Source of the DNA: Lachnospiraceae bacterium
GTDB taxonomy: Bacteria > Bacillota > Clostridia > Lachnospirales > Lachnospiraceae
Assembly: GCA_021771755.1 (NCBI GenBank)
Contig: JAETOL010000003.1
Span: 1-64,000 of the forward strand
Length of the DNA: 64,000 nucleotides
Reading direction: 5' to 3'
Part shown: positions 6,132-25,767 of the stretch, in pieces
Position numbering within the stretch: the first letter of the stretch is position 1
Layout: each line of letters starts with the position of its first letter
Notes under the pieces: generated by a model
Told to the model about the DNA's origin: nothing
Databases searched by the model: none
Seen by the model: only the letters and a program-made list of their open reading frames with translations
Position numbers and translations under genes: made by a program

Positions 6132-6232
6132 AAAAAACAACAAAAAACACATGAAAAACAAAAGGAAAACCGCATGCATATATGTTAGATTGTGTTGATT
6201 TCATTGACACATATCAGGAAATACGATATAAT
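6132..6232 (+). promoter_or_regulatory. Promoter of the glycyl-radical dehydratase with ACAAAAA-rich boxes
   Basis: TTGACA (6204-6209) and TATAAT (6227-6232) have a perfect 17-base spacer. The -10 box lies inside a CGATAT-A-ATATCG palindrome (6224-6236). About 50-70 bases upstream is an A/C-rich tract (6132-6168) with repeated ACAAAAA and AAAACA units, including ACAAAAAACACATGAA at 6140-6155. A close match, ACAAAAACAACATGAA, occurs upstream of the microcompartment promoter. Direct A-rich repeats of this sort are typical of DeoR-family operators, and a DeoR gene is in the locus (17757). Confidence 0.8.
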
Positions 6233-6288
6233 ATCGCTTATATGAACCATGGCATCTGAAGATGCCGGGAGAAAGGAGAAGCGTGGAG

Positions 6289-8808
6289 ATGTTTAATACC
6301 ACAGACATTCCAAAGTCATCCAGGATCACAAGACTGGTTGACCATCTGTATGAGAAAATGCCGGTGATCGAATCTGCAAGAGCGAAGCTGCTTACGGAGT
6401 CCTATAAGGAAACGGAAGGACAGCCCATGATCACCAGGCGTGCGGAGGCATTTGCTCATATCCTGCGTCATATTCCCATCATTATCCGTGATGAGGAACT
6501 GATCGTGGGAAGCAGTACCATAGCGCCAAGAGGCTGTCAGACCTATCCGGAATTTTCTTATCAGTGGCTGGAGGATGAACTGGATACGGTTGAAACGAGG
6601 AGCGCGGACCCGTTTTACATCGCCGAAGAGACCAAACAGGAGTTAAGAGAGGTACATAAATACTGGAAAGGAAGAACAACCAGTGAACTTGCTACTTCCT
6701 ACATGGCGCCGGAGGCTGTTCGGGCGATCGAACATAATATTTTTACACCGGGAAATTATTTCTATAATGGTGTAGGACATGTAACAGTAAAATACGAAGA
6801 GGTTCTTGCAATTGGCTATGAAGGGATTATGGCAAAGGCTCGGGCGGAGCTGGACAATTGTCAGGTAGGCGACGGCGATTATGCAAGACGTTCTCATTTT
6901 CTGAATGCAGTGATCTTGAGCTGTCAGGCAGTGATCGAGTATGCACAGCGTTATGCGGCGCTGGCTGAGAAGATGGCGGCAGAGTGCAGCGATCCGGTAA
7001 GAAAAGAAGAACTGCAGATTATAGCACTGAACTGCAGCCGTGTTCCGGCAAAAGGAGCAAATGGATTTTATGAGGCATGCCAGTCATTCTGGTTTGTCCA
7101 GCAGCTGATCCAGCTGGAATCCAGCGGACATTCCATTTCTCCGGGACGTTTTGACCAGTATATGTATCCGTATTATAAGAAGGATCTGGACAATGGAAAT
7201 ATCACCAGAGAATTTGCACAGGAGCTGATGGACTGCATCTGGGTGAAGCTTAATGACCTGAATAAATGCCGTGATGCTGCTTCGGCAGAAGGCTTTGCGG
7301 GATACAGCCTGTTTCAGAACCTGATCGCAGGAGGACAGAATAAGGATGGAGAAGATGTGACCAATGATCTTTCCATTATGTCCATTCAGGCATCCATGCA
7401 TGTGCACCTGCCGCAGCCGTCTCTTTCCGTAAGGGTCTGGAACGGTTCACCGCATGAGTTTCTGATCAAGGCGGCAGAGCTTACCAGAACCGGAATCGGA
7501 CTTCCTGCTTATTACAATGATGAGGTGATCATTCCCTCTTTGCAGAACCGGGGGCTTTCTCTGGAGGATGCCAGAGAATATAACATCATCGGCTGCGTGG
7601 AGCCGCAGAAGGCAGGAAAAACAGACGGATGGCATGATGCGGCCTTCTTTAATATGTGCCGGCCTCTGGAACTTGTATTTTCCAATGGCATGGATAAGGG
7701 AGAACTGGTAGGTGTTCAGACAGGTGATGTTGCCGGGATGAAGACCTTTGAGGAATTTTATGATGCTTATAAAAAACAAATGGAATACTGTATTTCTCTT
7801 CTTGTGAATGCAGACAATGCCATTGATGTGGCGCATGCAGAAAGATGTCCGCTGCCGTTCCTGTCCTGTATGGTGGACGACTGCATGAAGAGAGGCCTGT
7901 CTGTGCAGGAGGGCGGAGCCGTATATAACTTTACCGGACCGCAGGGCTTTGGAATCGCCAATATGGCGGATTCACTCTATGCGGTGCGCCAGCTGGTATA
8001 CAGAGACAAAAAGATATCCATGGAAGAACTGAAGGAGGCTCTTGCATGGAATTACGGCAAAGGCATCGATTCGCAGACAGCGGCAGATATGACAGCCTCT
8101 GTTTTGAAGGAAATGGAGCGTCAGGGCCAGGCGATCGACGAAAAGACAGCGGCATCTGTTCTTCAGGCAGTCCTGAACATGAAACCCACAGAACAGCAGA
8201 AGGCAAGATATGAGGAAATCCATCATCTGATCGATGAGGTACCGAAGTTCGGAAATGATATTCCGGAGGTGGATTATTTTGCCAGAGACGTGGCCTATAC
8301 ATATACCAGACCTCTTCAGAATTACAGAAATCCAAGAGGCGGTCAGTTCCAGGCGGGACTTTATCCGGTGTCTGCAAACGTTCCTCTTGGCGGGCAGACA
8401 GGAGCAACTCCGGACGGACGTTATGCCCATACACCAGTAGCAGACGGCGTATCTCCATCTGCCGGCAAGGATGTAAAAGGGCCGACTGCTGCAGCGACTT
8501 CTGTTTCCAGACTGGATCATTTTATTGTGTCAAACGGAACGCTGTTCAATCAGAAATTTCATCCTTCCGCACTTGCCGGAAGAGCGGGGCTGGAAAAATT
8601 TGTGGCGCTGATCCGTTCCTATTTTGACCAGAAAGGCATGCATGTACAGTTTAACGTGGTTGACAGAGATACGCTTCTGGATGCCCAGAAGAATCCTGAG
8701 AAATATAAGCATCTGGTTGTCCGTGTGGCCGGTTACAGCGCTTTGTTTACCACCCTTTCCAGATCTCTTCAGGACGATATTATCAGAAGAACCGAGCAGG
8801 GCTTCTGA
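6289..8808 (+). CDS. Glycyl-radical 1,2-propanediol dehydratase
   Basis: This 839-residue enzyme is a glycyl radical enzyme of the glycerol/diol dehydratase group and should convert 1,2-propanediol to propionaldehyde without B12. The active-site cysteine is Cys436 in GCVEPQ, with Glu438 as the partner typical of dehydratases, and the radical glycine is Gly815 in RVAGYSAL, 24 residues from the end. The FNQKFHP segment also fits this group. I start at the ATG at 6289, ten bases after AAGGAG; an upstream ATG at 6262 adds nine unlikely residues. Its activase follows after 50 bases. Unlike the other cargo enzymes here, it shows no amphipathic encapsulation peptide at either end. Choline lyase or hydroxyproline dehydratase activity is less likely given the propanediol context. 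Confidence 0.9.
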   Translation: MFNTTDIPKSSRITRLVDHLYEKMPVIESARAKLLTESYKETEGQPMITRRAEAFAHILRHIPIIIRDEELIVGSSTIAPRGCQTYPEFSYQWLEDELDTVETRSADPFYIAEETKQELREVHKYWKGRTTSELATSYMAPEAVRAIEHNIFTPGNYFYNGVGHVTVKYEEVLAIGYEGIMAKARAELDNCQVGDGDYARRSHFLNAVILSCQAVIEYAQRYAALAEKMAAECSDPVRKEELQIIALNCSRVPAKGANGFYEACQSFWFVQQLIQLESSGHSISPGRFDQYMYPYYKKDLDNGNITREFAQELMDCIWVKLNDLNKCRDAASAEGFAGYSLFQNLIAGGQNKDGEDVTNDLSIMSIQASMHVHLPQPSLSVRVWNGSPHEFLIKAAELTRTGIGLPAYYNDEVIIPSLQNRGLSLEDAREYNIIGCVEPQKAGKTDGWHDAAFFNMCRPLELVFSNGMDKGELVGVQTGDVAGMKTFEEFYDAYKKQMEYCISLLVNADNAIDVAHAERCPLPFLSCMVDDCMKRGLSVQEGGAVYNFTGPQGFGIANMADSLYAVRQLVYRDKKISMEELKEALAWNYGKGIDSQTAADMTASVLKEMERQGQAIDEKTAASVLQAVLNMKPTEQQKARYEEIHHLIDEVPKFGNDIPEVDYFARDVAYTYTRPLQNYRNPRGGQFQAGLYPVSANVPLGGQTGATPDGRYAHTPVADGVSPSAGKDVKGPTAAATSVSRLDHFIVSNGTLFNQKFHPSALAGRAGLEKFVALIRSYFDQKGMHVQFNVVDRDTLLDAQKNPEKYKHLVVRVAGYSALFTTLSRSLQDDIIRRTEQGF

Positions 8809-8858
8809 CAGGGCTGACGGAAGAAAAGGACCAGATGTTGATACAGGAAAGGCATACT

Positions 8859-9650
8859 ATGGATTATTTAAATACAAAGGGGAGGATATTTGATATCCAG
8901 AGATATTCCGTTCACGACGGACCGGGGATCCGTACCATTGTTTTTTTGAAGGGATGTGTACTCCGGTGCCGCTGGTGCTGTAATCCGGAATCACAGGAAT
9001 ACCGGATTCAGACCATGAAGGTCATGGGTGAGGAAAAAGTAATCGGAAGAGATACCACAGTGGCAGAGATGATCGCAGAGGTGGAAAAGGACAGACCTTA
9101 TTACTACCGATCGGGAGGAGGAATGACTCTTTCCGGAGGGGAATGCCTCTGCCAGCCGGAGTTTTCCAGAGATCTTCTCCGGGCGGCAAAGGAAAGAGGG
9201 ATCAATACTGCCATAGAAAGTATGGCCTGCGCGGATTTTGAAAAAATCCGCCGGCTGCTTCCTTATCTGGATCTTTATCTTATGGATATCAAGCATACCA
9301 ATCCTGAAAAACATAAAATGTTTACCGGCCGGTCTAACGAGCTGATGATGGAAAACGCCCGTAAGGTGGCTCTGTCAGGACAGACCAGGCTGATCATCCG
9401 TGTTCCGGTGATCCCTTCCTTTAATGATACCGTGGAAGAAATTCGCGGGATCGCGGCATTTGCAGATACGCTTCCGGGTGTGGAGGAACTGCATTTGCTG
9501 CCTTACCACAGACTGGGGCAGGATAAATACGAAGGTCTGGGACGGGAGTATCTGATGGAAGGAATCCTTCCGCCGGAGCCGGAGAAGATGAAAACCCTGA
9601 AGATGGCGGCGGAGAGCAGCTCTTCCCTTCGGGTACAGATCGGGGGATGA
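8859..9650 (+). CDS. Glycyl-radical enzyme activase (radical SAM)
   Basis: The 263-residue protein installs the glycyl radical on the preceding dehydratase using SAM and a [4Fe-4S] cluster. The cluster motif is CVLRCRWC (CX3CX2C) near residue 35, preceded by the family's SVHDGPGIRT, with GGGMTLSGGE further on. Most activases of diol dehydratases and choline lyase carry an extra two-cluster ferredoxin insert after the radical SAM motif; here the sequence passes straight from CCNPESQEY to VMGEEKVIG without cysteines, giving a compact PFL-activase-like form. I prefer the ATG at 8859, after CAGGAAAGG; the ATG at 8835 is also possible. I see no obvious terminator after it. Confidence 0.9.
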   Translation: MDYLNTKGRIFDIQRYSVHDGPGIRTIVFLKGCVLRCRWCCNPESQEYRIQTMKVMGEEKVIGRDTTVAEMIAEVEKDRPYYYRSGGGMTLSGGECLCQPEFSRDLLRAAKERGINTAIESMACADFEKIRRLLPYLDLYLMDIKHTNPEKHKMFTGRSNELMMENARKVALSGQTRLIIRVPVIPSFNDTVEEIRGIAAFADTLPGVEELHLLPYHRLGQDKYEGLGREYLMEGILPPEPEKMKTLKMAAESSSSLRVQIGG

Positions 9651-9723
9651 CTGTTTTTGCACAATACAAATGTGGTTTTTAAAAATACAGAAAAAACGCA
9701 GAATTCCCCCATTTACAAGGGTT

Positions 9724-9852
9724 TATACAATTGTATATTTTTTCAGAAAATGACAAAAAATAGAAACACAACAAAAACAACAACATAAAACCGACAAAAA
9801 CAACATGAATCAACAAGATTCCCTTGACAATCCTGTGAATAAGGAGTAGAAT
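9724..9852 (+). promoter_or_regulatory. Main promoter of the microcompartment operon with operator-like sequences
   Basis: TTGACA (9824-9829) and TAGAAT (9847-9852) are spaced by 17 bases. Upstream is a tract of ACAAAAA/AACAAC repeats (about 9752-9817), including ACAAAAACAACATGAA at 9794-9809, which nearly matches the tract before the glycyl-radical gene. A perfect 14-base palindrome TATACAATTGTATA lies at 9724-9737, followed by six T. The repeats are candidate sites for the DeoR-family protein encoded at 17757; the palindrome could serve a second regulator. Confidence 0.8.
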
Positions 9853-9900
9853 CTCCTTATAAATAAAAAAGAAACCAAATTGCTTAAGGAGGAAAAAAGC

Positions 9901-10707
9901 ATGGTAAACGAGTTTGAAATCAAAAAACAGATTTGTGACATCGGAAGACGTATCTACAATCGCAACATGGTTGCTGCAAATGACGGAAATATTTCCGTAA
10001 AACTGAATGACAATGAATTCCTCTGCACACCAACTGGTGTATCCAAAGGATTCATGACACCGGAGTACATCTGTAAAGTAGACGCAGAAGGTAATGTGAT
10101 CCAGGCAAATCCGGGATTCAAGCCATCTTCTGAGATCAAAATGCATATGAGAGTATATCAGAAGAGACCGGATGTTGGATCTGTTGTACATGCTCATCCT
10201 GTATATGCTACTTCTTTTGCAATTGCAGGTATTCCGCTGACACAGCCGATCATGCCTGAGGCAGTTATCGCACTTGGATGTGTTCCGATCGCTGAGTATG
10301 GTACACCTTCTACTATGGAGATTCCGGACAGACTTGAGAAATACCTTCCATACTTTGACGCAGTTCTTCTTGAGAGCCACGGTGCACTGACATGGTCTAC
10401 AGACCTGAACGCTGCTTACATGAAGATGGAATCTGTTGAGTTCTACGCACAGCTTCTGTATCAGAGCAAACTTCTTGGCGGACCGAAGGAATTCGACAAA
10501 GAGACCATCGAAAAACTGTATGAGATCAGAAGAAAAATGGGTCTTCCGGGCAAACATCCGGCAGATCTGTGCCTGAATAAAGACGGCCTCAACTGCCACA
10601 ACTGCGGCGGATGTATGGTAGCACATGCTCCGGAAGCACAGGAAGCAGATGCTGAGCTTATCGCAAACATCACAAAACAGGTAATGGCACAGCTTGGAAT
10701 GAAATAA
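9901..10707 (+). CDS. fucA: L-fuculose-1-phosphate aldolase with encapsulation tail
   Basis: The 268-residue class II aldolase cleaves L-fuculose 1-phosphate, and probably L-rhamnulose 1-phosphate, to dihydroxyacetone phosphate and L-lactaldehyde. Zinc-site residues correspond to Glu78, His97, His99 (VVHAHP) and His160 (ESHGAL), as in E. coli FucA. The enzyme is longer than FucA at its C-terminus: a cysteine-rich linker CHNCGGC (232-238) leads to an amphipathic helix (about 248-266, ELIANITKQVMAQLG) of the type that directs cargo into microcompartments. The ATG at 9901 follows AAGGAGGAAAA. As the first gene of the operon it fits the GRM5-type fucose/rhamnose compartment, in which lactaldehyde is formed inside the shell. 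Confidence 0.93.
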   Translation: MVNEFEIKKQICDIGRRIYNRNMVAANDGNISVKLNDNEFLCTPTGVSKGFMTPEYICKVDAEGNVIQANPGFKPSSEIKMHMRVYQKRPDVGSVVHAHPVYATSFAIAGIPLTQPIMPEAVIALGCVPIAEYGTPSTMEIPDRLEKYLPYFDAVLLESHGALTWSTDLNAAYMKMESVEFYAQLLYQSKLLGGPKEFDKETIEKLYEIRRKMGLPGKHPADLCLNKDGLNCHNCGGCMVAHAPEAQEADAELIANITKQVMAQLGMK

Positions 10708-10741
10708 TCTTTTGACGGAATGAATTAAGGAGGTCAATCTC

Positions 10742-12130
10742 ATGCCAATAAGTGAGAATATGGTACAGGAAATTGTACAGGAAGTTATGGCAAAAATGCA
10801 GATTGCAGAAGCTCCGGCCGGAAAACATGGCGTTTTTAAGGATATGAACGATGCGATCGAGGCAGCGAAGAAGTCTGAACTGATCGTAAAGAAAATGTCC
10901 ATGGATCAGAGAGAAAAGATCATTACCTGCATTCGTAAAAAAATCAAAGAAAATGCAGAAGTTCTGGCCCGTATGGGTGTGGAAGAGACCGGAATGGGTA
11001 ATGTTGGTGACAAGATCCTGAAACATCATCTTGTTGCAGACAAAACTCCGGGTACTGAAGACATCACTACTACAGCATGGTCCGGAGATAGAGGTCTTAC
11101 TCTGATCGAGATGGGACCATTCGGAGTGATCGGTGCGATCACACCATGTACAAACCCAAGTGAAACAGTTCTCTGCAACACCATCGGTATGCTGGCTGGC
11201 GGTAATACAGTTGTATTCAACCCTCATCCGGCTGCAATCAAAACTTCAATCTATGCGATCAACCTGCTGAATGAGGCTTCTCTGGAAGTGGGTGGTCCGG
11301 ATAATATCGCAGTTACCGTAGAGAAACCTACTCTGGAAACAAGTGATATTATGATGAAACATAAAGATATCCCGCTGATCGCTGCAACAGGTGGTCCGGG
11401 TGTTGTAACAGCAGTCCTTTCCTCTGGAAAGAGAGGAATCGGAGCAGGAGCAGGAAATCCTCCTGCACTTGTAGATGAGACTGCTGATATCCGCAAGGCT
11501 GCAAGAGACATCGTAAACGGATGTACATTTGACAACAATCTTCCCTGCATCGCAGAGAAAGAGATCGTTGCAGTATCTTCTGTTGTAGATGAGCTGATGC
11601 ACTACATGGTTACAGAAAATGACTGCTATCTGGCTTCCAAGGAAGAACAGGACAAACTGACAGAGGTTGTTCTGGCAGGCGGCAGACTGAACCGTAAATG
11701 TGTAGGAAGGGATGCAAGAACACTTCTTTCCATGATCGGGGTAAATGTACCGGCAAATATCCGCTGCATTACCTTTGAGGGACCGAAGGAGCATCCGCTG
11801 ATCGCAGAAGAGCTTATGATGCCGATCCTTGGTGTTGTAAGAGCAAAAGATTTTGACGACGCTGTTGAGCAGGCAGTATGGCTGGAGCACGGCAACCGCC
11901 ACTCCGCACATATCCACTCCAAGAACGTTGACAACATCACAAAATATGCAAAAGCAATCGACACTGCGATCCTTGTAAAGAACGGTCCGTCCTATTCCGC
12001 ACTTGGATTCGGAGGAGAGGGCTACTGTACATTTACCATTGCAAGCCGTACAGGAGAAGGTCTTACAAGCGCAAGCACATTCACCAAGAGAAGACGCTGC
12101 GTAATGTCTGACAGCCTTTGCATTCGTTAA
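10742..12130 (+). CDS. pduP: CoA-acylating propionaldehyde dehydrogenase PduP
   Basis: This 462-residue aldehyde dehydrogenase of the PduP/EutE family oxidises propionaldehyde with NAD+ and CoA to propionyl-CoA in the compartment lumen. Catalytic Cys269 lies in NNLPCIAEKE, the GGNTVVFNPHP and ATGGPGVV segments belong to the nucleotide site, and length matches the family. The first 20 residues (MPISENMVQEIVQEVMAKMQ) form an amphipathic encapsulation helix, as in Salmonella PduP. It starts 34 bases after the aldolase, behind AAGGAGGTC. It regenerates NADH, which the alcohol dehydrogenases use, and its product goes to PduL. Confidence 0.95.
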   Translation: MPISENMVQEIVQEVMAKMQIAEAPAGKHGVFKDMNDAIEAAKKSELIVKKMSMDQREKIITCIRKKIKENAEVLARMGVEETGMGNVGDKILKHHLVADKTPGTEDITTTAWSGDRGLTLIEMGPFGVIGAITPCTNPSETVLCNTIGMLAGGNTVVFNPHPAAIKTSIYAINLLNEASLEVGGPDNIAVTVEKPTLETSDIMMKHKDIPLIAATGGPGVVTAVLSSGKRGIGAGAGNPPALVDETADIRKAARDIVNGCTFDNNLPCIAEKEIVAVSSVVDELMHYMVTENDCYLASKEEQDKLTEVVLAGGRLNRKCVGRDARTLLSMIGVNVPANIRCITFEGPKEHPLIAEELMMPILGVVRAKDFDDAVEQAVWLEHGNRHSAHIHSKNVDNITKYAKAIDTAILVKNGPSYSALGFGGEGYCTFTIASRTGEGLTSASTFTKRRRCVMSDSLCIR

Positions 12131-12147
12131 TCAGGAGGAATAGAACA

Positions 12148-13380
12148 ATGGATATGAACAATGTAAATATTGAAGAAATCGTAAAACAGGTTCTTTCCGG
12201 CATGACAGGAAAAGGAGCTGCTCCGGCAGCAGCTTCTGCTCCGGCGGCTCCGGCAGCAAACGGCGGAATCCCGAAAACTGCAAGAGTTGCAATGATGACC
12301 GAGAAAAAACATTTTGAGCTTCAGGAATATCCGCTTCCGGAACTGGGAGACGACGACATCCTTGTTAAAGTAGAAGGATGCGGTGTCTGCGGAACAGATG
12401 CTCATGAATACAAAAACGATCCGTTTGGTCTGATCCCGGTAGTCCTTGGACACGAGGGAACAGGTGAGATCGTTGCAATGGGTAAAAACGTCAAGGCTGA
12501 TACAGCCGGCAAACCGGTTCAGGTAGGCGATAAGGTTGTTACCTGCATGATCTTCAAGGATGATCCGGAGATCACAATGTTTGACCTGAACAAGAAAAAC
12601 GTAGGCGGAGCAGATGTATATGGACTTCTTCCGGATGATGATGTAAAATTCAATGGATGGTTCGCTGACTACATCTTTATCAGAGGCGGAAAATTCGGTT
12701 CTACTTTCTTTAATGTAAGTGACCTGGATCTGGATTCCCGTATTCTGATCGAGCCATGTGCGGTTCTGATCCATGCGGTAGAGAGAGCAAAAACAACAGG
12801 TATCCTGAAATTCAACAGTAGAGTTGTTGTTCAGGGCTGCGGACCGATCGGTCTTATCTGTATTGCAGTTCTCCGTACCATGGGTATCGAAAATATCTGT
12901 GCAGTAGACGGAAATGAGCAGCGCCTTGAATTTGCAAAGAAAATGGGCGCATCTGTATCTGTAAACTTTATGGAGCATCAGGGAATTGAAGCCCTGACAG
13001 CTGCTGTAGAGGCTGCGTTTGGCGGACATCTTGCAGATTTTGCATTCCAGTGCACAGGTAATCCGAAAGCACATGCAAATATCTATAAATTTATCCGCAA
13101 CGGCGGTGGTCTTTGTGAACTTGGCTTCTTCATCAATGGTGGAGATGCACAGATCAACCCGCATTTTGACCTTTGCTCCAAAGAAATCAATCTGGTTGGC
13201 TCCTGGGTATACAACCTGAGAGATTACGCAACTACATTTGATTTCCTTAAGAGAGCAAAAGCAATCGGACTTCCGATGTCTGAGCTGATCACTCATAAAT
13301 ATCCTCTTGAGGAGATTAATGAAGCGCTTGAGACAAACCTTGCAATGACAGGTCTGAAGATTGCGATTGTTAATAAATAA
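12148..13380 (+). CDS. Zinc-type alcohol dehydrogenase with encapsulation peptide
   Basis: The 410-residue protein is a medium-chain (MDR) alcohol dehydrogenase. Catalytic zinc ligands are visible as Cys81 in GCGVCGTD and His102-Glu103 in GHEG, and VVQGCGPIGLI is the NAD(P) fold. It lacks the four-cysteine structural zinc loop of many relatives. It opens with an amphipathic helix (NIEEIVKQVLSGM) followed by an Ala/Pro linker (23-40), a clear cargo tag. Since lactaldehyde is made inside the shell by the tagged aldolase, lactaldehyde reduction to 1,2-propanediol is the role I favour; propanol formation is then left to the iron enzyme PduQ encoded at 18547. The ATG at 12148 follows CAGGAGGAA. 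Confidence 0.88.
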   Translation: MDMNNVNIEEIVKQVLSGMTGKGAAPAAASAPAAPAANGGIPKTARVAMMTEKKHFELQEYPLPELGDDDILVKVEGCGVCGTDAHEYKNDPFGLIPVVLGHEGTGEIVAMGKNVKADTAGKPVQVGDKVVTCMIFKDDPEITMFDLNKKNVGGADVYGLLPDDDVKFNGWFADYIFIRGGKFGSTFFNVSDLDLDSRILIEPCAVLIHAVERAKTTGILKFNSRVVVQGCGPIGLICIAVLRTMGIENICAVDGNEQRLEFAKKMGASVSVNFMEHQGIEALTAAVEAAFGGHLADFAFQCTGNPKAHANIYKFIRNGGGLCELGFFINGGDAQINPHFDLCSKEINLVGSWVYNLRDYATTFDFLKRAKAIGLPMSELITHKYPLEEINEALETNLAMTGLKIAIVNK

Positions 13381-13404
13381 TCCGGATAATAAAGGAGAAG
13401 CAAA

Positions 13405-13719: not shown

Positions 13720-13767
13720 CAAAGCATAAATCCAATGATAGAAACTTGATTCAGGAGGAGAAATAAA

Positions 13768-14043: not shown

Positions 14044-14068
14044 TCATCAAATATAAAGGAGTTCGCTC

Positions 14069-14401: not shown

Positions 14402-14451
14402 TCCGGTAAGAATCACCGGATCAGGATTATCCATATAAGGAGGAAAAAATC

Positions 14452-17719: not shown

Positions 17720-17756
17720 TTTATAAAAATAAAGTTCTCAAAAGGGGGCGGGAAAA

Positions 17757-18530
17757 ATGCTGGCATTAGAAAGACGGAATCTTATCCTTGAGAAGCTTCA
17801 AACAGAAAAAAGAGTGGTGGTCAGTGAATTGAGCCAGCTCTATGATGTTTCAGAGGAGACCATACGCCGTGATCTGGATAAGCTTGAAAAAGAAGGGCTT
17901 GCCACAAAAAGCTACGGTGGAGCTGTCATTAATGAAAATGTGAGTATTGACCTGCCCTTTAATATTCGAAAAAACCAGAATGTGGCCGGGAAACAGAAAA
18001 TGGCAGAGATCGTTGCATCACTGGTTCAGGACGGAGATCATATTTTTCTGGATGCAAGCACCACGGCAGTATTTATCGCCAAGGCGCTGAAAGAAAAAGA
18101 AAGACTGACGGTGATCACGAATTCTATGGAGATCCTGATCGAGCTTTCCGATGTATCCGGCTGGAATATAATTTCCACAGGCGGTGTAATGAAGGAAGGG
18201 TATCTTGCTTTTCTGGGATCCAGAACAGAAGAAGCAATCCGGTCCTATTATGTGGACAAGGTGTTCTTTTCCTGTAAGGCGCTGGATCAGGAATGGGGGA
18301 TTATGGAATCCCAGGAGGCTTTTGGCACCACCAAAAAAGCCATGCTTGCCTCCGGACGCCGGAAGATTCTGGTTGTTGACAGTACAAAATTTGATCAGAC
18401 CGCTTTTTCCGTATCCGGAAAACTGCGGGATTTAGATATGGTTGTAACAGACAAAAAGCCTTCTGAAAAGTGGCTTGCATGTTTTACAGATGCGGGGATC
18501 GAATGTCGTTATCCCCAGATACAGCCATAG
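17757..18530 (+). CDS. DeoR-family transcriptional regulator
   Basis: This 257-residue repressor has an N-terminal winged helix-turn-helix (MLALERRNLILEKL...VSEETIRRDLDKLEKEG) and a sugar-phosphate-isomerase-like effector domain (FLDASTTAVFIAKAL, TNSMEIL, VVDSTKFDQTAF). Members usually sense phosphorylated sugars; here a fuculose or rhamnulose phosphate, or dihydroxyacetone phosphate, is plausible. It lies inside the operon between pduT and pduQ, so it likely controls its own expression. The ACAAAAA-rich tracts before the glycyl-radical and aldolase promoters are its likeliest sites. The ribosome site AAAGGGGGCGGG is strong. Confidence 0.93.
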   Translation: MLALERRNLILEKLQTEKRVVVSELSQLYDVSEETIRRDLDKLEKEGLATKSYGGAVINENVSIDLPFNIRKNQNVAGKQKMAEIVASLVQDGDHIFLDASTTAVFIAKALKEKERLTVITNSMEILIELSDVSGWNIISTGGVMKEGYLAFLGSRTEEAIRSYYVDKVFFSCKALDQEWGIMESQEAFGTTKKAMLASGRRKILVVDSTKFDQTAFSVSGKLRDLDMVVTDKKPSEKWLACFTDAGIECRYPQIQP

Positions 18531-18546
18531 AAAAGGAGCATCATAT

Positions 18547-19698
18547 ATGAAGACTTTTGAGATGAAGACAGTCATCCATTTTGGTGAGAATTCACTGGAC
18601 AGGCTGAGAGATATTCCATATCAGAGAGTTCTGATCATCACAGATCCTTTTGTGGTTCAGAGCGATATGATCCATCTGATCACAGAGCCGCTGAATAAAG
18701 GCGGTAAGGACTATGATATTTTTCATAATGTAGTTCCGGATGCACCTGTAGATAAGATCGCAGACGGTGTTAAGAAGTTTTTGAGCTTTCAGCCGGATGT
18801 GGTCGTAGCAGTAGGCGGCGGTTCCGCGATTGACTCTTCCAAGGCGATCCGTGAATTTGCCCTGAAGATCAATCACTATGCAGATGTAGGACTGATTGCA
18901 ATCCCTACGACCAGCGGTACCGGTTCGGAAGTCACTTCTTTTGCAGTTGTCAATGATACGGAGGCAAAGGTTAAATATCCTCTCGTTTCTGACAGTCTGA
19001 CAGCAGATGAGGCAATTCTTGACGCAGAGTTGGTAAAAAGTGTTCCGCCTTCTATTACAGCGGATACCGGTATGGACGTGTTTACGCATGCGCTGGAATC
19101 TTATGTCAGCCTTGATCACAATGAGTTTTCTTCTGCACTGGCAGAAAAATCCATTGAGATCTGCGGTGTGTTCCTCCTGAGAGCTTATCTGGACGGAACA
19201 GATATGCATGCCCGTCAGAAAATGCATGTGGCATCCTGCCTTGCAGGACTTTCCTTCAATACGGCAGGACTTGGAATTACGCACAGTATGGCACATCAGC
19301 TTGGAGCGATGTTCCATATTCCTCATGGAAGAGCAAATGCGATGCTGCTTCCTCATATTGTAGAGTTTAACTCAAATATCAACAAACACAGCAGAAGTCA
19401 GAAAGAATATCTTCCGGCAGTGAAGAGATATGCAAATATCGCCCATATCCTGGGACTGAGTAATTACAATAAGGTAATGAGCGTCCGTTCTCTTGTAAAC
19501 TGGATTCAGTTTATGCTGAAAGAGATGAACATTCCTCTTACTATTCAGGAAATCGGGACAATTACACCGGATGCATACTTTGCGGCAGTAGATAAAATGG
19601 CAGAGGCAGCTCTTGCAGATGCATGTACACCTACGAACCCCAGAGTACCGACCAAGGAAGATATTATCAGGATCTACACAAAACTGTGGTCCTTCTGA
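18547..19698 (+). CDS. pduQ: Iron-type alcohol dehydrogenase PduQ
   Basis: The 383-residue group III alcohol dehydrogenase resembles PduQ, which reduces propionaldehyde to 1-propanol and regenerates NAD+ in the compartment. The NAD site GGGSAID, the family signature region TTSGTGSEVT and iron ligands in HSMAHQLGAMFHIPHG are visible. Lactaldehyde reductase (FucO) is a related alternative. No encapsulation peptide is obvious; PduQ is held in other systems by binding the shell. The ATG at 18547, after AAAAGGAG, gives the family's usual N-terminus. It directly precedes the B12-dependent dehydratase genes. Confidence 0.9.
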   Translation: MKTFEMKTVIHFGENSLDRLRDIPYQRVLIITDPFVVQSDMIHLITEPLNKGGKDYDIFHNVVPDAPVDKIADGVKKFLSFQPDVVVAVGGGSAIDSSKAIREFALKINHYADVGLIAIPTTSGTGSEVTSFAVVNDTEAKVKYPLVSDSLTADEAILDAELVKSVPPSITADTGMDVFTHALESYVSLDHNEFSSALAEKSIEICGVFLLRAYLDGTDMHARQKMHVASCLAGLSFNTAGLGITHSMAHQLGAMFHIPHGRANAMLLPHIVEFNSNINKHSRSQKEYLPAVKRYANIAHILGLSNYNKVMSVRSLVNWIQFMLKEMNIPLTIQEIGTITPDAYFAAVDKMAEAALADACTPTNPRVPTKEDIIRIYTKLWSF

Positions 19699-19746
19699 TA
19701 AAGGAGAACAGAAGCTGTGAAAGACTTTTCTGAAAAGGTAGACACT

Positions 19747-21411
19747 ATGAAAAGATCGAAAAGAATAGAGGCGCTGGATCGCCGGGCAGTGAATAAAGAC
19801 GGTTTTATTGACGAATGGCCGGAGATGGGATTTGTGGCTATGCACAGCCCATATGATCCGGAGCCTTCCATAAAAATTGAAGATGGTGTGATCACAGAAC
19901 TGGACGGAAAGAAGAGAGAAGACTTTGACTTCCTGGATCAGTTTATTGCAGATTACGCGATCCGTACAGACAGAGCAGAGGCGTCTATGGCGGTTTCTTC
20001 TCTGGAAATAGCCAGAAAGATTGTGGATATCCATGTTTCCCGTAAGGAAATCCTGGAGATTGTATCCGGCATCACACCGGCGAAGATGGCAGAAGTTATC
20101 AACTGCCTGAACGTGGTGGAGATGATGATGGGTATGCAGAAAATGCGTGCCAGAAAGGTGCCGGGCAACCAGGCACATATCACCAATCTGAAAGATGATC
20201 CGGTACAGATCGCAGCAGATGCTGCAGAGGGAGCATTAAGAGGCTTCAGTGAAGAAGAGACTACCATGGGCGTGGCACGTTATGCACCGTTCAGTGCAAT
20301 GGCTCTTCTGATCGGCTCTCAGGTTGGACGCCCGGGTGTCCTTACACAGTGCTCTGCAGAAGAAGCAACGGAACTGGAACTGGGAATCCGCGGTCTTACA
20401 ACATATGCAGAAACTCTTTCTGTATATGGTACAGAAAAAGTATTTATCGACGGAGATGATACTCCGTATTCCAAAGCATTTCTGAATTCCGCTTATGCTT
20501 CCAGAGGACTGAAGGTTCGCTTTACTTCAGGCGCAGGCAGCGAGGTGCTTATGGGAAGCAGTGAGATGAAATCCATGCTTTATCTTGAGTGCCGCTGTCT
20601 CTATGTGACCAAGGGTGCAGGAAGCCAGGGAATCCAGAATGGTTCTGTAAGCTGCGTTGGTGTAGCTGCCGGAGTTCCTGCAGGAATCCGTGAGATCATT
20701 GGTGAAAACCTTGTGGCAGCTCTTCTTGGTCTGGAATGTGCTTCCTCCAATGACCAGAGCTTTTCCAACTCAGATATGAGAAGGACTGCAAGGACTATGC
20801 TGCAGTTTATGCCGGGAACAGATTTTATCTTCTCCGGATATGCGGCAGAGCCAAACTATGACAACATGTTTGCAGGCTCCAACTTTGATGCAGAGGATTT
20901 TGACGACTATAATGTGATGCAGAGAGATATGCAGGTAGACGGAGGTCTTCGCCCGGTTACGGAAGAGGACGTGATCCGTGTACGCCGTACCGCAGGAAAA
21001 GCAGTTCAGGCAGTCTTTAAATATCTTGGACTTACCGAGGTGACAGATGAACAGGTGGAGGCAGTTACCTACGCGCACGGAAGCAAGGATACGCTGAAAC
21101 GTGATGCGGCAGCAGATCTGATGTCTGCAGACGATATGATGAAACGCGGCATTACAGGAGTTGATGTGGTAAAAGCTCTGGCAGAAAGCGGTTATACAGA
21201 GCTTGCGGAAAACATCCTGAACATGCTGAAACAGAGAGTGATCGGAGATTATATGCATACAGCGGCGATCCTGGACGAGCATTTTCAGGTAATGTCCGGC
21301 GTAAATACTCCGAACGATTATATGGGACCGGGAACCGGGTATCGTGTTTCCGGCAAGCGCTGGGAGGAGATCAAAGCGATTCCTCACAGGATCAATGTAA
21401 ACGAATTTTAG
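19747..21411 (+). CDS. pduC: B12-dependent propanediol dehydratase large subunit
   Basis: This is the catalytic alpha subunit of adenosylcobalamin-dependent diol dehydratase, which turns 1,2-propanediol into propionaldehyde. From the ATG at 19747 it has 554 residues, the same as Salmonella PduC, and begins MKRSKRIEALDRRAVNKDGF as the family does. Recognisable blocks include MGVARYAPFSAMALLIGSQVG, LECASSNDQSFSNSDMRR and the FSGYAAEPNYDNMFAG region. A GTG at 19717 with a good AAAGGAG ribosome site would add ten residues and cannot be excluded. It is the second, mechanistically unrelated diol dehydratase of the locus. Confidence 0.95.
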   Translation: MKRSKRIEALDRRAVNKDGFIDEWPEMGFVAMHSPYDPEPSIKIEDGVITELDGKKREDFDFLDQFIADYAIRTDRAEASMAVSSLEIARKIVDIHVSRKEILEIVSGITPAKMAEVINCLNVVEMMMGMQKMRARKVPGNQAHITNLKDDPVQIAADAAEGALRGFSEEETTMGVARYAPFSAMALLIGSQVGRPGVLTQCSAEEATELELGIRGLTTYAETLSVYGTEKVFIDGDDTPYSKAFLNSAYASRGLKVRFTSGAGSEVLMGSSEMKSMLYLECRCLYVTKGAGSQGIQNGSVSCVGVAAGVPAGIREIIGENLVAALLGLECASSNDQSFSNSDMRRTARTMLQFMPGTDFIFSGYAAEPNYDNMFAGSNFDAEDFDDYNVMQRDMQVDGGLRPVTEEDVIRVRRTAGKAVQAVFKYLGLTEVTDEQVEAVTYAHGSKDTLKRDAAADLMSADDMMKRGITGVDVVKALAESGYTELAENILNMLKQRVIGDYMHTAAILDEHFQVMSGVNTPNDYMGPGTGYRVSGKRWEEIKAIPHRINVNEF

Positions 21412-21421
21412 GAGGTGCGCC

Positions 21422-22108
21422 ATGGAAGTAAATGAACAGCTGATACGAGCCATTACTCAGGCAGTGGTGGAGCAGTTGCATAAGAATGGTGCACAGCCCC
21501 AGACACAGGCAGAAATGCAGCAGCCTTCCGGTACACAGGAACTTGCAGGCAGAACAAGAATGCGTCCGAAACATTCTTATGAGGGCGCGGCAAGGGCTGC
21601 CCAGGGAACCGATCCCAAGGAGATCGTGATCGGTGTGGGCGCAGCATTTCAGACAGAGATCAATAAGACCATGGGAGGAATTCCTCTGGATGAGGTACTT
21701 CGCAATGTAAAAGCAGGTATTGAGGAAGAGGGAATGACTTCTCGTGTAGTAAAGGTGCTGGATACCTCTGATGTGTGCTTTATGGCCCTTCAGGCAGCGA
21801 AGCTTTCCGGTTCCGGAATCGGAATCGGTATTCAGTCAAAGGGGACGACTGTGATCCATCAGAAGGATCTGTATCCTCTTTCTAATCTGGAGCTTTTTCC
21901 ACAGGCACCGCTTATGGATCTGGAAACCTATCGTAAGATCGGACGTAATGCAGCCAGATATGTAAAGGGAGAGAAGGTAACTCCGATCGAGTGTACCAAC
22001 GATCCTATGGTACGTGCAAAATATCAGGTGAAGGCAGCTCTTATGCACATAGTAGAAACTGAGCAGCTGGATCCGGAAAAAGGCATGATCGAATGGGAGG
22101 GAAGATAA
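21422..22108 (+). CDS. pduD: Propanediol dehydratase medium subunit
   Basis: The 228-residue beta subunit begins with an amphipathic helix, VNEQLIRAITQAVVEQL, followed by a Gln/Pro-rich linker to about residue 45. In Salmonella the equivalent segment of PduD targets the whole dehydratase to the compartment. The globular part contributes to cobalamin binding (IVIGVGAAFQTEI, GIGIGIQSKGTTVIHQKDL). It starts behind AGGAGGTGC, 10 bases after pduC, and its TAA overlaps the ATG of pduE by one base. The tag shows that the B12 enzyme is meant to be encapsulated. Confidence 0.95.
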   Translation: MEVNEQLIRAITQAVVEQLHKNGAQPQTQAEMQQPSGTQELAGRTRMRPKHSYEGAARAAQGTDPKEIVIGVGAAFQTEINKTMGGIPLDEVLRNVKAGIEEEGMTSRVVKVLDTSDVCFMALQAAKLSGSGIGIGIQSKGTTVIHQKDLYPLSNLELFPQAPLMDLETYRKIGRNAARYVKGEKVTPIECTNDPMVRAKYQVKAALMHIVETEQLDPEKGMIEWEGR

Positions 22109-22503
22109 TGAGCAGCTATCCTTTAGGACAGAATGAAGCGGATACCATTACCTCCAAAACTGGCAAAAAACTTTCTGATATTACGCTGGATGAGGTAAAA
22201 AGAGGCAACGTACAGGCCGAGGATATCAAGATATCCCCGGAAATGCTGAAACGTCAGGGACAGGTGGCAAAAGAAGCGGATAATCCTCAGATGGAGGCGA
22301 ACTTCCAGAGAGCTTCTGAACTTGCCAATGTGCCGGATGAAGTGATTTTAACAATGTATAACAAGCTGAGACCAAACCGTTCCACCAAAAAAGAACTTGT
22401 GCTCATGGCACAGGAACTTCTTGAAAAATACAGTGCACCGCACTGTGCAAAGCTGGTTTTGGAAGCGGCTGAAATTTATGAAAAAAGGGGAATTCTTCTT
22501 TGA
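22108..22503 (+). CDS. pduE: Propanediol dehydratase small subunit
   Basis: The 131-residue gamma subunit completes the diol dehydratase heterohexamer. It opens SSYPLGQNEADTITSKTGKKL, and LRPNRSTKKELVLMAQELLE near residue 90 is the strongest family block. It is smaller than the roughly 170 residues of enteric PduE, mostly through a shorter N-terminus. I take the ATG at 22108 (overlapping the pduD stop); an in-frame ATG at 22093 is less likely. Its own stop overlaps the TTG of pduG. Confidence 0.94.
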   Translation: MSSYPLGQNEADTITSKTGKKLSDITLDEVKRGNVQAEDIKISPEMLKRQGQVAKEADNPQMEANFQRASELANVPDEVILTMYNKLRPNRSTKKELVLMAQELLEKYSAPHCAKLVLEAAEIYEKRGILL

Positions 22504-24314
22504 AACTGATTGCTGGTGTTGACATAGGAAATTCCACAACTGAAGTATGTATCGGCAGCGTGGGAGAGGATGGAAGCTTTCATTTCCTCTCCTCCGCTTC
22601 CCGTATCACCACCGGAACTAAGGGAACACTTCCGAATGTTCACGGTATTAAAGCGGCTCTTATGGAGGCCATGGATCGAATCCGGCAGCCTTTGGAAGCC
22701 CTTGATTTAGTGCGCTTAAATGAGGCTGCACCTGTAATCGGTGATACGGCAATGGAGACCATTACGGAAACCATTATCACGGAATCTTCCATGATCGGCC
22801 ATAATCCTTCTACTCCGGCAGGAGCAGGAGAGGCTGCAGGTTATCTGATTCATCTGGAAAATATCTGGAAAGGAAAACCAGGCGTGCCCTACATAGCAGT
22901 GGCGGCAAATAAGTTTTCCTATGAAGAAGTGGCAGCCAGGCTGAACCAGCATATTCCGGAATTGGATATCCGGGGACTGATCCTCCAGGCAGATGAGGCT
23001 GTTCTGGTGGAAAATCGCCTGAACAGGCAGATTCCGATCATTGATGAAGTACGGCATATAGAAAGGGTACCGGAGGAAAAGCTGGCAGCGATCGAGGTTG
23101 CTCTTCCGGGAACAGGGATCCGTATGCTGAGCAATCCTTATGGGATTGCTACTCTTCTGGGACTGGATGCAGAGGAGACAAAGGCAGTTACCCCTATTGC
23201 CAAAAGTCTGATCGGAAAAAGAAGTGCGGTAGTGATCCGCACACCAAATGGAAATATCAGAGAAAACGTTCTTCCTGCAGGTGAGATCAATTTTCACGGC
23301 ACGCAGGAAATCCGTGTGAATATCGATACTGGAGCAGATACGATCATGGACAGCCTCCAAAAAGCAGGCGAGATCAGGGATATTGACGGACAGCAGGACA
23401 CCAATGTGGGAAATATGCTGAACCGTATCAAAAAAAGCATGACGGATGTAGCAGCGGAAGCAGACCATGAAGCAAGGATCACAGATATCCTGGCAGTGGA
23501 TACCATGGCTCCGGTAGAAATTTCAGGTTCACTGGCAGGTGAGACCTGTATGGAAAAAGCAGTGGGGATCGCTGCAATGGTAAAAACAAAGCATCTTCCT
23601 ATGCAGAAGATCGCAGAAAGACTGGAGCAGGAGCTTCATATAAAAGCAGTGGTAGCCGGTGTGGAAGCGGTAATGGCAGCCTTAGGTTCCCTGACGACAC
23701 CGGGAACAAGACTTCCTCTTGCCATCCTTGATATGGGAGGCGGATCTACAGATGCTGCAGTGCTGGAAGCAGACGGCGGTGTCCGCACGACACATCAGGC
23801 AGGAGCGGGAGAGCTTGTGACCATGCTGATCCAGACGGAGCTTGGACTGGGCAGCCGTACTACGGCAGAACAGATCAAGAAATATCCGATGGGAAAGGTA
23901 GAAAGCCTTTTTCATATGAGACTGGAAAATGGTTCCATGCAGTTTTTTGAAGAATCCATAGATCCCAGATATTATGGACATGTGGTACTTCTTGCACCAG
24001 GCGAAATGCTGAAGGTGGAGGAAGATATCCCAATGGAAAAGATCCTGGAGGTGCGAAGGGAAGCCAAGCGTAAGGTGTTTGTGCGAAATGCCATCCGCGC
24101 TCTGGAAAAAGTGGCTCCGGATCATGATTTAAGAAAGATACCAAACGTGGTGCTGGTGGGAGGTTCGGCAGAGGATTTTGAAATCCCGGAGATGCTGACA
24201 GAAGCTCTGGCAGAGTACCGGATCGTCTGTGGACGGGGAAATATCCGGGGAACCGAGGGCCCGAGAAATGCAGTTGCCACAGGTTTGTTAATGTCATATT
24301 TAAGCAGCAGATAA
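22500..24314 (+). CDS. pduG: Diol dehydratase reactivase large subunit
   Basis: The 604-residue chaperone-like ATPase, with its small partner PduH, exchanges inactivated cobalamin from the dehydratase. Actin/Hsp70-type nucleotide motifs are visible: GVDIGNSTTEVCIG at the start, DMGGGSTDAAVL near 410, and VLVGGSAEDFEIP near 555. The length is near that of Salmonella PduG (610). It begins with TTG, in a four-base overlap with the pduE stop, so translation is probably coupled. Its presence argues that the B12 dehydratase is functional. Confidence 0.95.
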   Translation: MKLIAGVDIGNSTTEVCIGSVGEDGSFHFLSSASRITTGTKGTLPNVHGIKAALMEAMDRIRQPLEALDLVRLNEAAPVIGDTAMETITETIITESSMIGHNPSTPAGAGEAAGYLIHLENIWKGKPGVPYIAVAANKFSYEEVAARLNQHIPELDIRGLILQADEAVLVENRLNRQIPIIDEVRHIERVPEEKLAAIEVALPGTGIRMLSNPYGIATLLGLDAEETKAVTPIAKSLIGKRSAVVIRTPNGNIRENVLPAGEINFHGTQEIRVNIDTGADTIMDSLQKAGEIRDIDGQQDTNVGNMLNRIKKSMTDVAAEADHEARITDILAVDTMAPVEISGSLAGETCMEKAVGIAAMVKTKHLPMQKIAERLEQELHIKAVVAGVEAVMAALGSLTTPGTRLPLAILDMGGGSTDAAVLEADGGVRTTHQAGAGELVTMLIQTELGLGSRTTAEQIKKYPMGKVESLFHMRLENGSMQFFEESIDPRYYGHVVLLAPGEMLKVEEDIPMEKILEVRREAKRKVFVRNAIRALEKVAPDHDLRKIPNVVLVGGSAEDFEIPEMLTEALAEYRIVCGRGNIRGTEGPRNAVATGLLMSYLSSR

Positions 24315-24324
24315 CGGAGGGAAC

Positions 24325-24684
24325 ATGATTGTAAATAAGCCAACTGTTATCATTTATACAAGAGATCCTGATGAGGATCTTCTTCGGGAGATCTGCGCAG
24401 GAATTGAGGAAGAGGGTGTCCTTTACGAAGTACATTCCGGAAAAGGAGACATGGATACACTTGCTTATGAAGCAGCCAAAGATTCCATGCTGGGTTCCGG
24501 GATCGGAATGGAGGGCAGGAGGATCGCCATGCAGATGGCAAGACTTCCAAAAGGAAAAAATGTATTTGAATTGAATGATCCCCGTTTCTGGCAGTGCAGG
24601 AATCTGGGGAGCAACAGTGCGAGAGCGGTAAAGAAAATGCCGTTTAAACCGATTTATACAGAAAATGGGGAGATGTCGTTATGA
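24325..24684 (+). CDS. pduH: Diol dehydratase reactivase small subunit
   Basis: This 119-residue protein is the small subunit of the reactivase. Family features include GIEEEGVLYEVH, the SMLGSGIGMEGRRIAMQMARLP block and FELNDPRFWQCRNLGSNSARAVKKMPF. It follows pduG by 10 bases, with ACGGAGGGAA ahead of the ATG, and overlaps pduO by four bases (ATGA). No unusual features were seen. Confidence 0.94.
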   Translation: MIVNKPTVIIYTRDPDEDLLREICAGIEEEGVLYEVHSGKGDMDTLAYEAAKDSMLGSGIGMEGRRIAMQMARLPKGKNVFELNDPRFWQCRNLGSNSARAVKKMPFKPIYTENGEMSL

Positions 24685-25724
24685 GCATTTATACAAAAGG
24701 CGGTGACAGAGGCACGACCAGTCTGGTCCGCACAAAAAATGTTTCCAAGTCAGACGACCGTATTCAGCTGGTAGGAACTATTGACGAGCTGACAAGCCAT
24801 CTGGGACTGGTAAAAACAATGATCGAAGATGAAGAAAACATCCGTATGCTGGAAAACATCCAGCGTATTCTGATCACGGTCATGGCAGGTGTGGCAGATC
24901 CTTATAACAAAGAATATAAGCTTGATGAACATGCAGCGGAATTTCTGGAACAGGAGATCGACCGTATGGAAGGGCTTTTCCATAGACCGAAGGAATTTAT
25001 CCTTCCCGGCCAGTGCCGGCTTTCCGCAGAATTGGATATTGCCCGTACAGTCTCAAGGAGAGCAGAACGCGCCCTTGCAGCAGTCAGTGTGAAATTTGGT
25101 GCAGATAACGGTGCAAAGATCTTTATGAACCGTCTGGCAGATTATCTGTATGTACTTGCAAGATATACGGACGCAAAGATGGAAAAGAAGGTGGATAATA
25201 CAGCTTCAGAAGCTGTTAATGGTGGAAAAGAGGAAAAATCCATGGAACAGAATCAGAATCCTGCAGCCAGTGAGGCTGTCATTCAGGAAGTATTAAAAAG
25301 AATGGGCGTACAGGGCAGGATTACTCTGGACAGTGCCAAGCGCCTGATCGAAAAGATTGAAGAAGAGGCCAGGCGCAGAGGAAAAAAGGCAGTGATCGCC
25401 ATCTGCGGACCGGAAGGAAACCCGGTCGCAGTCCATGTGATGGATGGAGCTTTTCTGGTCAGCTTTGATGTGGCTACAAAAAAAGCATATACTTCCGTGG
25501 CAGTAAAAATGTCTACCATGGAATTGTCGAAGCTTGCACAGCCGGGAGGTACCTTCTACGGTGTGGATAAAATGGACAATGGAAAGATTGTGATCTTTGC
25601 AGGAGGAGTACCTCTTAAAGTTGGTGATACTATCATCGGCGGACTGGGAATCAGTGGAGGAACAGGAGAAGAGGATCACAGCCTGGCAGAGTATGGACTG
25701 TCTGTTTTGAATGAAGTATTATAG
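24681..25724 (+). CDS. pduO: Cobalamin adenosyltransferase PduO, two-domain
   Basis: The 347-residue protein joins an ATP:cob(I)alamin adenosyltransferase (about 1-170; TKGGDRGTTSLV ATP loop, DELTSHLG, and LPGQCRLSAELDIARTVSRRAERA) through a Glu/Asn/Gln-rich linker to a GlcG/HbpS-like C-terminal domain (about 205-347; AIEKIEEEARRRGK-like helix, then AVHVMDGAFLVS and GGVPLKVGDTIIGGLGISGG). It makes the adenosylcobalamin cofactor of PduCDE, probably from cobalamin reduced by PduS. The C-terminal domain binds haem in some relatives; its function here is unproven. It is the last gene of the operon, with a terminator 11 bases downstream. Confidence 0.94.
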   Translation: MSIYTKGGDRGTTSLVRTKNVSKSDDRIQLVGTIDELTSHLGLVKTMIEDEENIRMLENIQRILITVMAGVADPYNKEYKLDEHAAEFLEQEIDRMEGLFHRPKEFILPGQCRLSAELDIARTVSRRAERALAAVSVKFGADNGAKIFMNRLADYLYVLARYTDAKMEKKVDNTASEAVNGGKEEKSMEQNQNPAASEAVIQEVLKRMGVQGRITLDSAKRLIEKIEEEARRRGKKAVIAICGPEGNPVAVHVMDGAFLVSFDVATKKAYTSVAVKMSTMELSKLAQPGGTFYGVDKMDNGKIVIFAGGVPLKVGDTIIGGLGISGGTGEEDHSLAEYGLSVLNEVL

Positions 25725-25735
25725 ATGAAGAAAAC

Positions 25736-25767
25736 AAAAATCAGGTGATGCTTGCACCTGATTTTTG
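25736..25767 (+). terminator. Terminator of the microcompartment operon
   Basis: AAAAATCAGGTG (25736-25747) pairs perfectly with CACCTGATTTTT (25755-25766) around a seven-base loop. The A and T runs make it effective in either direction. Confidence 0.93.

Follow-up and report, generated by a model that had tools for sequence, protein, structure and literature searches.

In a Blautia genome of the Lachnospiraceae (99.98% complete), one microcompartment locus carries two unrelated, complete diol dehydratase systems beside a single set of shell genes: a glycyl-radical enzyme (GRE) with its activase, and the B12-dependent PduCDE with the reactivase PduGH and the adenosyltransferase PduO. The locus lies within the first 64,000 nucleotides of contig JAETOL010000003.1 (GCA_021771755.1), referred to here as the window. 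An earlier note on this DNA had claimed the two systems, and protein domains, family cut-offs, intact frames and recurrence in 14 of 80 named loci confirm them. By the features tested, the locus is a GRM5-type fucose/rhamnose microcompartment with a pdu module added, and I give a probability of about 60% to the reading that this compartment has two alternative signature enzymes and that the dual state is a route for their exchange. The direct basis of this reading is the gene content with its unbroken frames, the selection acting on either set, the recurrence of the pair and a core-gene tree; a shared shell, shared control by a DeoR regulator and the action of both enzymes on propanediol are its predicted parts.

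From GRE to pduO the locus occupies 6262-25724 with every gene on the plus strand, in the order listed, and the shell set consists of six genes (four BMC-H, one BMC-P and a PduT-like BMC-T). Two genes of the upstream pathway close the list.

6262-8808, plus strand: glycyl-radical 1,2-propanediol dehydratase (GRE), start more likely ATG 6289; PFL-like and Gly_radical domains
8835-9650, plus strand: radical-SAM activase, 271 amino acids; Pfam Radical_SAM and Fer4_12 only
9901-10707, plus strand: class II aldolase (PF00596), fuculose/rhamnulose-1-phosphate aldolase, C-terminal encapsulation-like helix; Pfam match, no NCBIfam cut-off reached
10742-12130, plus strand: CoA-acylating aldehyde dehydrogenase (PduP-like), N-terminal encapsulation-like helix
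12118-13380, plus strand: zinc alcohol dehydrogenase of the GRM5 kind (PF00107, PF08240), N-terminal encapsulation-like helix
13405-13719, plus strand: BMC-H shell protein 1
13768-14043, plus strand: BMC-H shell protein 2
14069-14401, plus strand: BMC-H shell protein 3
14452-14730, plus strand: BMC-H shell protein 4
14804-15448, plus strand: PduL phosphate propanoyltransferase, N-terminal encapsulation-like helix
15492-15821, plus strand: BMC-P vertex protein
15799-17154, plus strand: PduS-like flavo/iron-sulphur oxidoreductase
17141-17719, plus strand: PduT-like BMC-T, two BMC domains
17757-18530, plus strand: DeoR-family regulator
18475-19698, plus strand: iron alcohol dehydrogenase, start probably 18547
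19717-21411, plus strand: PduC, large subunit of B12-dependent diol/glycerol dehydratase, start probably 19747; above NCBIfam curated cut-off
21422-22108, plus strand: PduD, N-terminal encapsulation-like helix; above NCBIfam curated cut-off
22093-22503, plus strand: PduE; 178.2 bits, just below the closest NCBIfam cut-off (183)
22500-24314, plus strand: PduG, reactivase large subunit; above NCBIfam curated cut-off
24325-24684, plus strand: PduH, reactivase small subunit; Dehydratase_MU domain
24681-25724, plus strand: PduO, adenosyltransferase and HbpS-like domain with an encapsulation-like helix in the linker; N-domain above NCBIfam curated cut-off
27798-29714, plus strand: L-fucose isomerase, upstream pathway
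53245-54699, plus strand: rhamnulokinase, upstream pathway

The genome holds one close GRE and one close PduC; further GRE matches are partial (23-46% identity) and lie in other loci. The radical enzyme aligns without gaps over 837 residues (query 11-847, chain 4-840) with the solved diol dehydratase 5i2a, which I take to be the Roseburia inulinivorans enzyme, and by this alignment it is a GRE of the diol-dehydratase kind with an internal insert, as in GRM5. Its catalytic cysteine and glycine are residues 445 and 824 counted from ATG 6262, and 436 and 815 from ATG 6289, so that the earlier note's Cys436/Gly815 is correct on the latter count. The GRM5 features further include the zinc alcohol dehydrogenase with PF00107 and PF08240, homologues of PduS and PduT, and the class II aldolase with PF00596 (9901-10707), which the earlier gene list had omitted. 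PDU-type loci have pduAB ahead of the dehydratase genes and shell genes behind them, whereas in the window the shell genes stand 5' of pduC, behind GRE and aldolase; the PDU feature that the window does share is PduCDE together with PduGH and PduO. GRM5 with a GRE is described in the available parts of PMC8156839 and PMC6325248, and according to the latter the R. inulinivorans GRM5 enzyme converts 1,2-propanediol. No separate ferredoxin domain is seen among the Pfam matches of the activase, in agreement with GRM5, the only type whose activases lack a ferredoxin-like insert in that part of PMC6325248.

As far as PMC3557285 presents them, the GRM5 loci of R. inulinivorans and Clostridium phytofermentans share with the window GRE, activase, class II aldolase, aldehyde dehydrogenase, zinc alcohol dehydrogenase, the BMC-H set, PduL, BMC-P, PduS, PduT and DeoR in a similar order; they are without pduCDE and pduGH, the absence of a B12-dependent dehydratase being a feature of these two loci, whereas the window adds pduCDEGH and a full PduO with an adenosyltransferase domain. 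The PDU1 locus of Salmonella resembles the window in PduCDE, PduGH, PduO, PduS, PduT, PduL and the PduP-like aldehyde dehydrogenase, but the window's aldolase, zinc alcohol dehydrogenase, DeoR regulator and gene order are GRM5-like, unlike the PDU1 order and its regulator PocR (general knowledge or the available part of PMC3557285). Gene content and order thus bear out the earlier description of a GRM5-type locus with a terminal pduCDEGHO block and one shell set. PduS, which had been counted with the B12 system, is present but not specific to it, because GRM5 loci without B12 enzymes carry PduS too (57 of 57 in the part of PMC6325248 available), and it was dropped as a marker of the B12 set.

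The encapsulated aldolase would cleave fuculose- or rhamnulose-1-phosphate to lactaldehyde, which would be reduced to 1,2-propanediol; this would then become propionaldehyde through either the GRE, activated by its activase, or PduCDE, maintained by PduGH and PduO, and shared dehydrogenases and PduL would yield propanol and propionate. The fucose isomerase and the rhamnulokinase in the window support the fucose/rhamnose reading. That both enzymes act on propanediol, as had been proposed, is uncertain, as PduC scores higher against the glycerol dehydratase 1iwp (854.6 bits) than against the diol dehydratase 1dio (806.8 bits), making glycerol a possible substrate. The two enzymes could therefore have separate jobs in a common shell, the GRE using (S)-1,2-propanediol from fucose or rhamnose and PduCDE external glycerol or propanediol, and the B12 set indeed brings its own reactivase, which glycerol-inactivated dehydratases need. 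However, enzymes of the PduCDE family take both glycerol and propanediol, no glycerol-specific gene was found among the scanned locus genes, and the B12-only relatives retain the aldolase and the shell set, as if PduCDE had replaced the GRE on the same route. I consider such a division of substrates rather unlikely, though the most credible of the alternatives weighed here.

The two enzymes recur together in the window's genus. Among 64 of its genomes, counted after GRE matches below 40% identity had been dropped (seven matches of 33-39% identity and the second partial matches of G013, G018 and G052 were left out), both lie on one contig, 13.3-14.6 kb apart, in 14, and on different contigs in five; 11 have PduC only, 11 the GRE only, seven only a more distant GRE (68-71%), three PduC and such a GRE, and 13 neither. 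In-frame stops are listed for seven GRE matches of the genus, six of whose alignments start at query residue 1 or 2 and that of G056 at 4, all upstream of query residue 10, which stands at the likely GRE start; for PduC, stops are listed for G036 and for the truncated piece of G052.

The 80 named loci (handles beginning with L) were located through PduS, and many of them, as stored, stop short of the region of interest: 14 contain both enzymes, 12 PduC without a visible GRE, 33 a GRE without visible PduC, and in 21 neither is visible. Gene order, whose comparison had been suggested earlier, has the GRE in front and the pdu genes behind in 13 of the 14 dual loci. In all 14 the GRE and PduC frames are unbroken in the stored part (the whole GRE in five, cut by the end of the stretch in nine). 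That the two sets are neighbours by chance was rejected, because 14 of the 80 named loci and 14 of the 64 genomes of the genus show the linkage. The named locus closest to the window belongs to a Blautia metagenome-assembled genome (L008), and the closest named isolate with both dehydratases is Blautia caecimuris DSM 29492 (L010). A genome-wide check, covering 25 of the named-locus genomes (E up to 1e-50 for PduC and 1e-150 for GRE), found no PduC in the radical-only L021, L022, L027 and L029, and no GRE in the B12-only L011, L013, L014, L044 and L081. On a contig other than that of the locus, however, L023 and L034 (radical-only by locus) have a PduC, and L025, L031 and L066 (PduC-only by locus) have a GRE.

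Purifying selection acts on both dehydratases. When the window is compared with B. caecimuris, at a dS of 0.5-1.4 (dS was saturated or undefined in some other pairs), dN/dS is 0.042 for the GRE, 0.052 for the activase, 0.016 for PduC, 0.051 for PduD and 0.054 for PduG, and for the shared genes 0.033 (aldehyde dehydrogenase) and 0.042 (PduS). These values and the open frames led to rejection of the idea that either set has become a pseudogene in the window. The dual state might still be a passing redundancy, a short-lived stage of enzyme exchange that brings the cell nothing, one set always being on the point of loss, and both types of single-enzyme relative do occur on the same chassis. This is unlikely, as dN/dS is low for both sets between species at a dS near 1, and the dual loci are spread over the clade, both enzymes being kept in the 14 genus genomes mentioned. 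As a side observation, L015 and L016, metagenome-assembled genomes with similar isolate names, show dN = dS = 0 for PduS and PduD and a dS of about 1 in several neighbouring genes, a pattern of recombination or mixed assembly.

The core tree was built by a quick method from six core proteins of 68 of the 80 named loci and the window, and parsimony was run under three settings of gain and loss costs. All three place one PduC gain at the base of a 39-row clade and another in L075 (Mobilisporobacter), with four losses, three of them inside a 32-row clade whose ancestor has both enzymes in every setting and within which one GRE loss is reconstructed. The GRE is present in the 39-row ancestor if gains cost two or three times as much as losses. 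Dual loci are scattered across the clade and not confined to one corner, and the distances of both enzymes follow those of the core genes (among the 15 dual rows, the nine whose GRE is almost complete give Mantel r 0.96 for GRE and 0.95 for PduC; all 27 GRE rows give 0.89 and all 23 PduC rows 0.80). By parsimony, the pdu block would have joined a GRM5 locus in a Lachnospiraceae ancestor, and descendants would have kept both enzymes or dropped one, which would make the two-enzyme state a route for the shell to change its signature enzyme. A gain in such an ancestor fits the earlier suggestion of a block added to the end of the operon, but the addition is not recent.

The loci that lack one set show what may be traces of such losses. 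In L021, L022, L023, L026, L027 and L029, pduCDEGH is missing and the iron alcohol dehydrogenase is followed by a full PduO; five of these loci show the GRE, and L026 begins behind it. Only the HbpS part is kept in L047 and L071, which have no PduC, and no PduO is visible in L032-L035, L037, L038, L040 and L041, some of them with little downstream sequence stored. In an alignment of 18 PduO, all 12 that occur with PduCDE retain the T of the motif GT(I/V)DEL, whereas all six that occur without have another residue there, and the D is replaced by E in four of these six, three of the four being close kin. Searches for remnants gave nothing convincing, neither for pduCDEGH in the gaps of the six loci without it, where L026 has a PduC-like stretch (E 0.03), nor for GRE and activase upstream of the aldolase in six B12-only loci. 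Outside this clade, the HbpS part is in many GRM5 relatives a gene of its own next to the aldolase; PduO may have taken over this part and may therefore have stayed when pduCDEGH left. A bolder and more tentative proposal, which I hold to be possible but somewhat less than probable, is that signature enzymes are exchanged by way of a stable state with two unrelated radical dehydratases in one shell, ancestral in a Blautia-centred clade and kept by selection in many species. Separate losses would then have produced compartments that retain this shell but have only the radical or only the B12 enzyme, and in some of them PduO would have stayed because its HbpS-like part had turned into a resident cargo.

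A promoter scan of the window gave no overall excess (31 sites against 28.0 expected), but its best two of 31 sites stand 5' of the GRE and of the aldolase, and it found no match of comparable strength 5' of pduC. There are thus probably two transcription units, GRE-activase and aldolase-shell-pduCDEGHO, with the following promoter regions.

6100-6288, plus strand: GRE-activase promoter region; TTGACA-17-TATAAT at 6204-6232 (12/12), box AAAAACAACA at 6133
9700-9900, plus strand: long-unit promoter region; TTGACA-17-TAGAAT at 9824-9852 (11/12), boxes AAAAACAACA at 9773 and 9796

The box has five copies in the window against 0.26 expected, three of the five within these two regions. A looser form, AAAA[AC]C[AC]ACA, is found 5' of the GRE in 10 of 19 loci and 5' of the aldolase (FucA) in 47 of 65, while a shuffled sequence contains it 0.01 and 0.04 times on average. 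I regard it as a candidate DeoR operator, by which both units may be under the same DeoR regulator. The two enzymes could also be made at different times and never meet in one compartment, since GRE-activase has its own strong promoter match and the pdu genes closely trail the shell genes, so that the shell unit with PduCDE could run alone; the same candidate operator before both promoters in many loci argues against this, and I give it little credence.

A short encapsulation-like helix pattern is C-terminal in the aldolase, lies close to the N-terminus of the aldehyde dehydrogenase, the zinc alcohol dehydrogenase, PduL and PduD, and in PduO falls within the linker. The N-terminus of PduD is said (Fan and Bobik, 2011, by its title) to package the B12 enzyme into the Pdu compartment, and the pattern is found in PduD of 23 of 25 loci. 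These helices suggest that GRE and PduCDE may share a shell. The interdomain helix of PduO occurs in 24 of 30 full PduO under a loose pattern, although PMC6325248 states that no encapsulation peptide has been identified on PduO; a fixed-pattern scan of stand-alone HbpS proteins found it in one of 17, an N-terminus resembling an encapsulation peptide being visible by eye in some.

Several observations weigh against the two-enzyme exchange reading. At equal gain and loss costs the GRE is absent from the 39-row ancestor, so that it may have been re-inserted into a B12-only locus. The gene trees conflict with the core tree where PduC of L042 groups with L025 and L081, and, with low support, where the GRE of L028 groups with L027 and L029, which makes some exchange between loci likely. 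The activase of the dual locus L045 is broken across two frames, either through faulty assembly or because the radical set is being lost there, the latter being what a passing redundancy would produce. Where pduCDEGH is missing, the adenosyltransferase domain shows no clear relaxation (dN/dS 0.08-0.21 across five pairs, against 0.08-0.17 in four pairs with PduCDE). Both the operator box and the helix pattern were defined after inspection of these same sequences, and the helix pattern is about as dense in 29 control proteins (seven matches in 11787 residues, in three proteins) as in the locus proteins (six in 7334; 1.11 when shuffled), so that its case rests on place and conservation rather than on number. 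The strict helix pattern was not found in the window GRE, whose targeting would rest on the internal insert predicted to serve encapsulation in PMC6325248, as far as available.

The wider family was sampled with 298 genomes of at least 90% completeness, with GRE matches at E up to 1e-250 and down to 53% identity. PduC is present in 21, the GRE in 57 and both in 17 (Fisher p 2e-10); without the window's genus, both occur in 16, among 20 with PduC and 55 with GRE. The two lie at most 25 kb apart in five of the 17: the window, G170, G100, G372 and G286. The order in G170 (Mobilisporobacter, L075) is shell genes, pduCDEGHO, GRE; in G100 (G100:C60) and G372 (G372:C2) (L104, L107, L108), GRE and activase come immediately after pduCDEGHO, and in G286 GRE-activase stands about 6 kb 5' of pduC. 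The stretches of 20, 34 and 28 kb read from G100, G372 and G286 contain no recognised shell homologue, and the two-dehydratase block of G100 and G372 apparently lies away from shell genes. Bilifractor porci (L067, same coordinates as G288) has HbpS-pduCDEGH-adenosyltransferase 5' of the aldolase, at the position of the GRE. The fuculose shell set may thus have taken up dehydratase modules at either end, and more than once.

The benefits proposed earlier were propanediol use without B12 and, a conjecture on which the sequence is neutral, its use under traces of oxygen that destroy the glycyl radical. As to the first, the genome has a cluster with CbiD, CbiG, CbiJ, a CbiA-like amidase and corrin methylases, a cobalamin riboswitch 5' of an ABC transporter ahead of that cluster, and CbiK with a periplasmic binding protein 3' of another of its three cobalamin riboswitches. 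It may thus make cobamides itself, which weakens the B12-free benefit, although cobalt shortage or the cost of B12 would still fit.

The rarity implied earlier is weakened by the linked pairs within the genus and by what is already published. In the parts of these papers available, both enzyme forms occur in 28 Clostridiales genomes (PMC9403272), Axen et al. 2014 (PMC4207490) report one PDU/GRM fusion with both kinds in one locus, named a new locus type, and Clostridium methylpentosum has a B12-dependent enzyme with a fucose/rhamnose microcompartment, where the same source makes no mention of a radical enzyme (PMC6620236). Sutter et al. 2021 (PMC8217296, in part) proposed an exchange between PDU1AB and GRM4, which have shells and substrate in common and the signature enzyme interchanged; these are two end states, whereas the window's clade adds the both-enzyme state on a GRM5 chassis. 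A literature search (listings and abstract openings, most subscription papers being outside its reach) found no publication on the two-enzyme Blautia locus or the loss series. While co-occurrence, one fusion and a B12 enzyme in a fucose compartment are known, this arrangement and the loss series may be new.

Some neighbouring features may be recorded. Open reading frames of 207, 99 and 96 amino acids at 26212-27438, between pduO and the fucose isomerase, have no Pfam or NCBIfam match; the latter two recur 3' of PduO in many dual and single-enzyme loci (31-64% identity), and all three may be small proteins tied to the fucose region. A lysine riboswitch at 2438-2620 stands directly 5' of an NhaC/ArcD-like antiporter gene (2726-4369), probably a lysine transporter. 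Two overlapping short frames (129 and 81 amino acids) at 4449-5047, the first with weak partial methyltransferase matches under cut-offs, look like a frame-shifted or truncated gene. On the minus strand, 33515-36277 encodes a papain-family protease with lectin-like and BspA-type leucine-rich repeats, adjoining a fucose mutarotase-like gene (36364-36870).

The classification of microcompartments follows their signature enzyme, and the loci described here are relevant to the way in which a shell passes from one such enzyme to another. Three states (both enzymes, radical only, B12 only) occur on the same shell set within one genus, and named strains are at hand, B. caecimuris DSM 29492 as dual and B. 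massiliensis GD8 and B. schinkii MSK.6.26 as radical-only, so that the exchange, the cost of two radical chemistries and the two-enzyme shell itself are directly testable. The finding also bears on the formation of propionate in the gut from host and plant deoxysugars.

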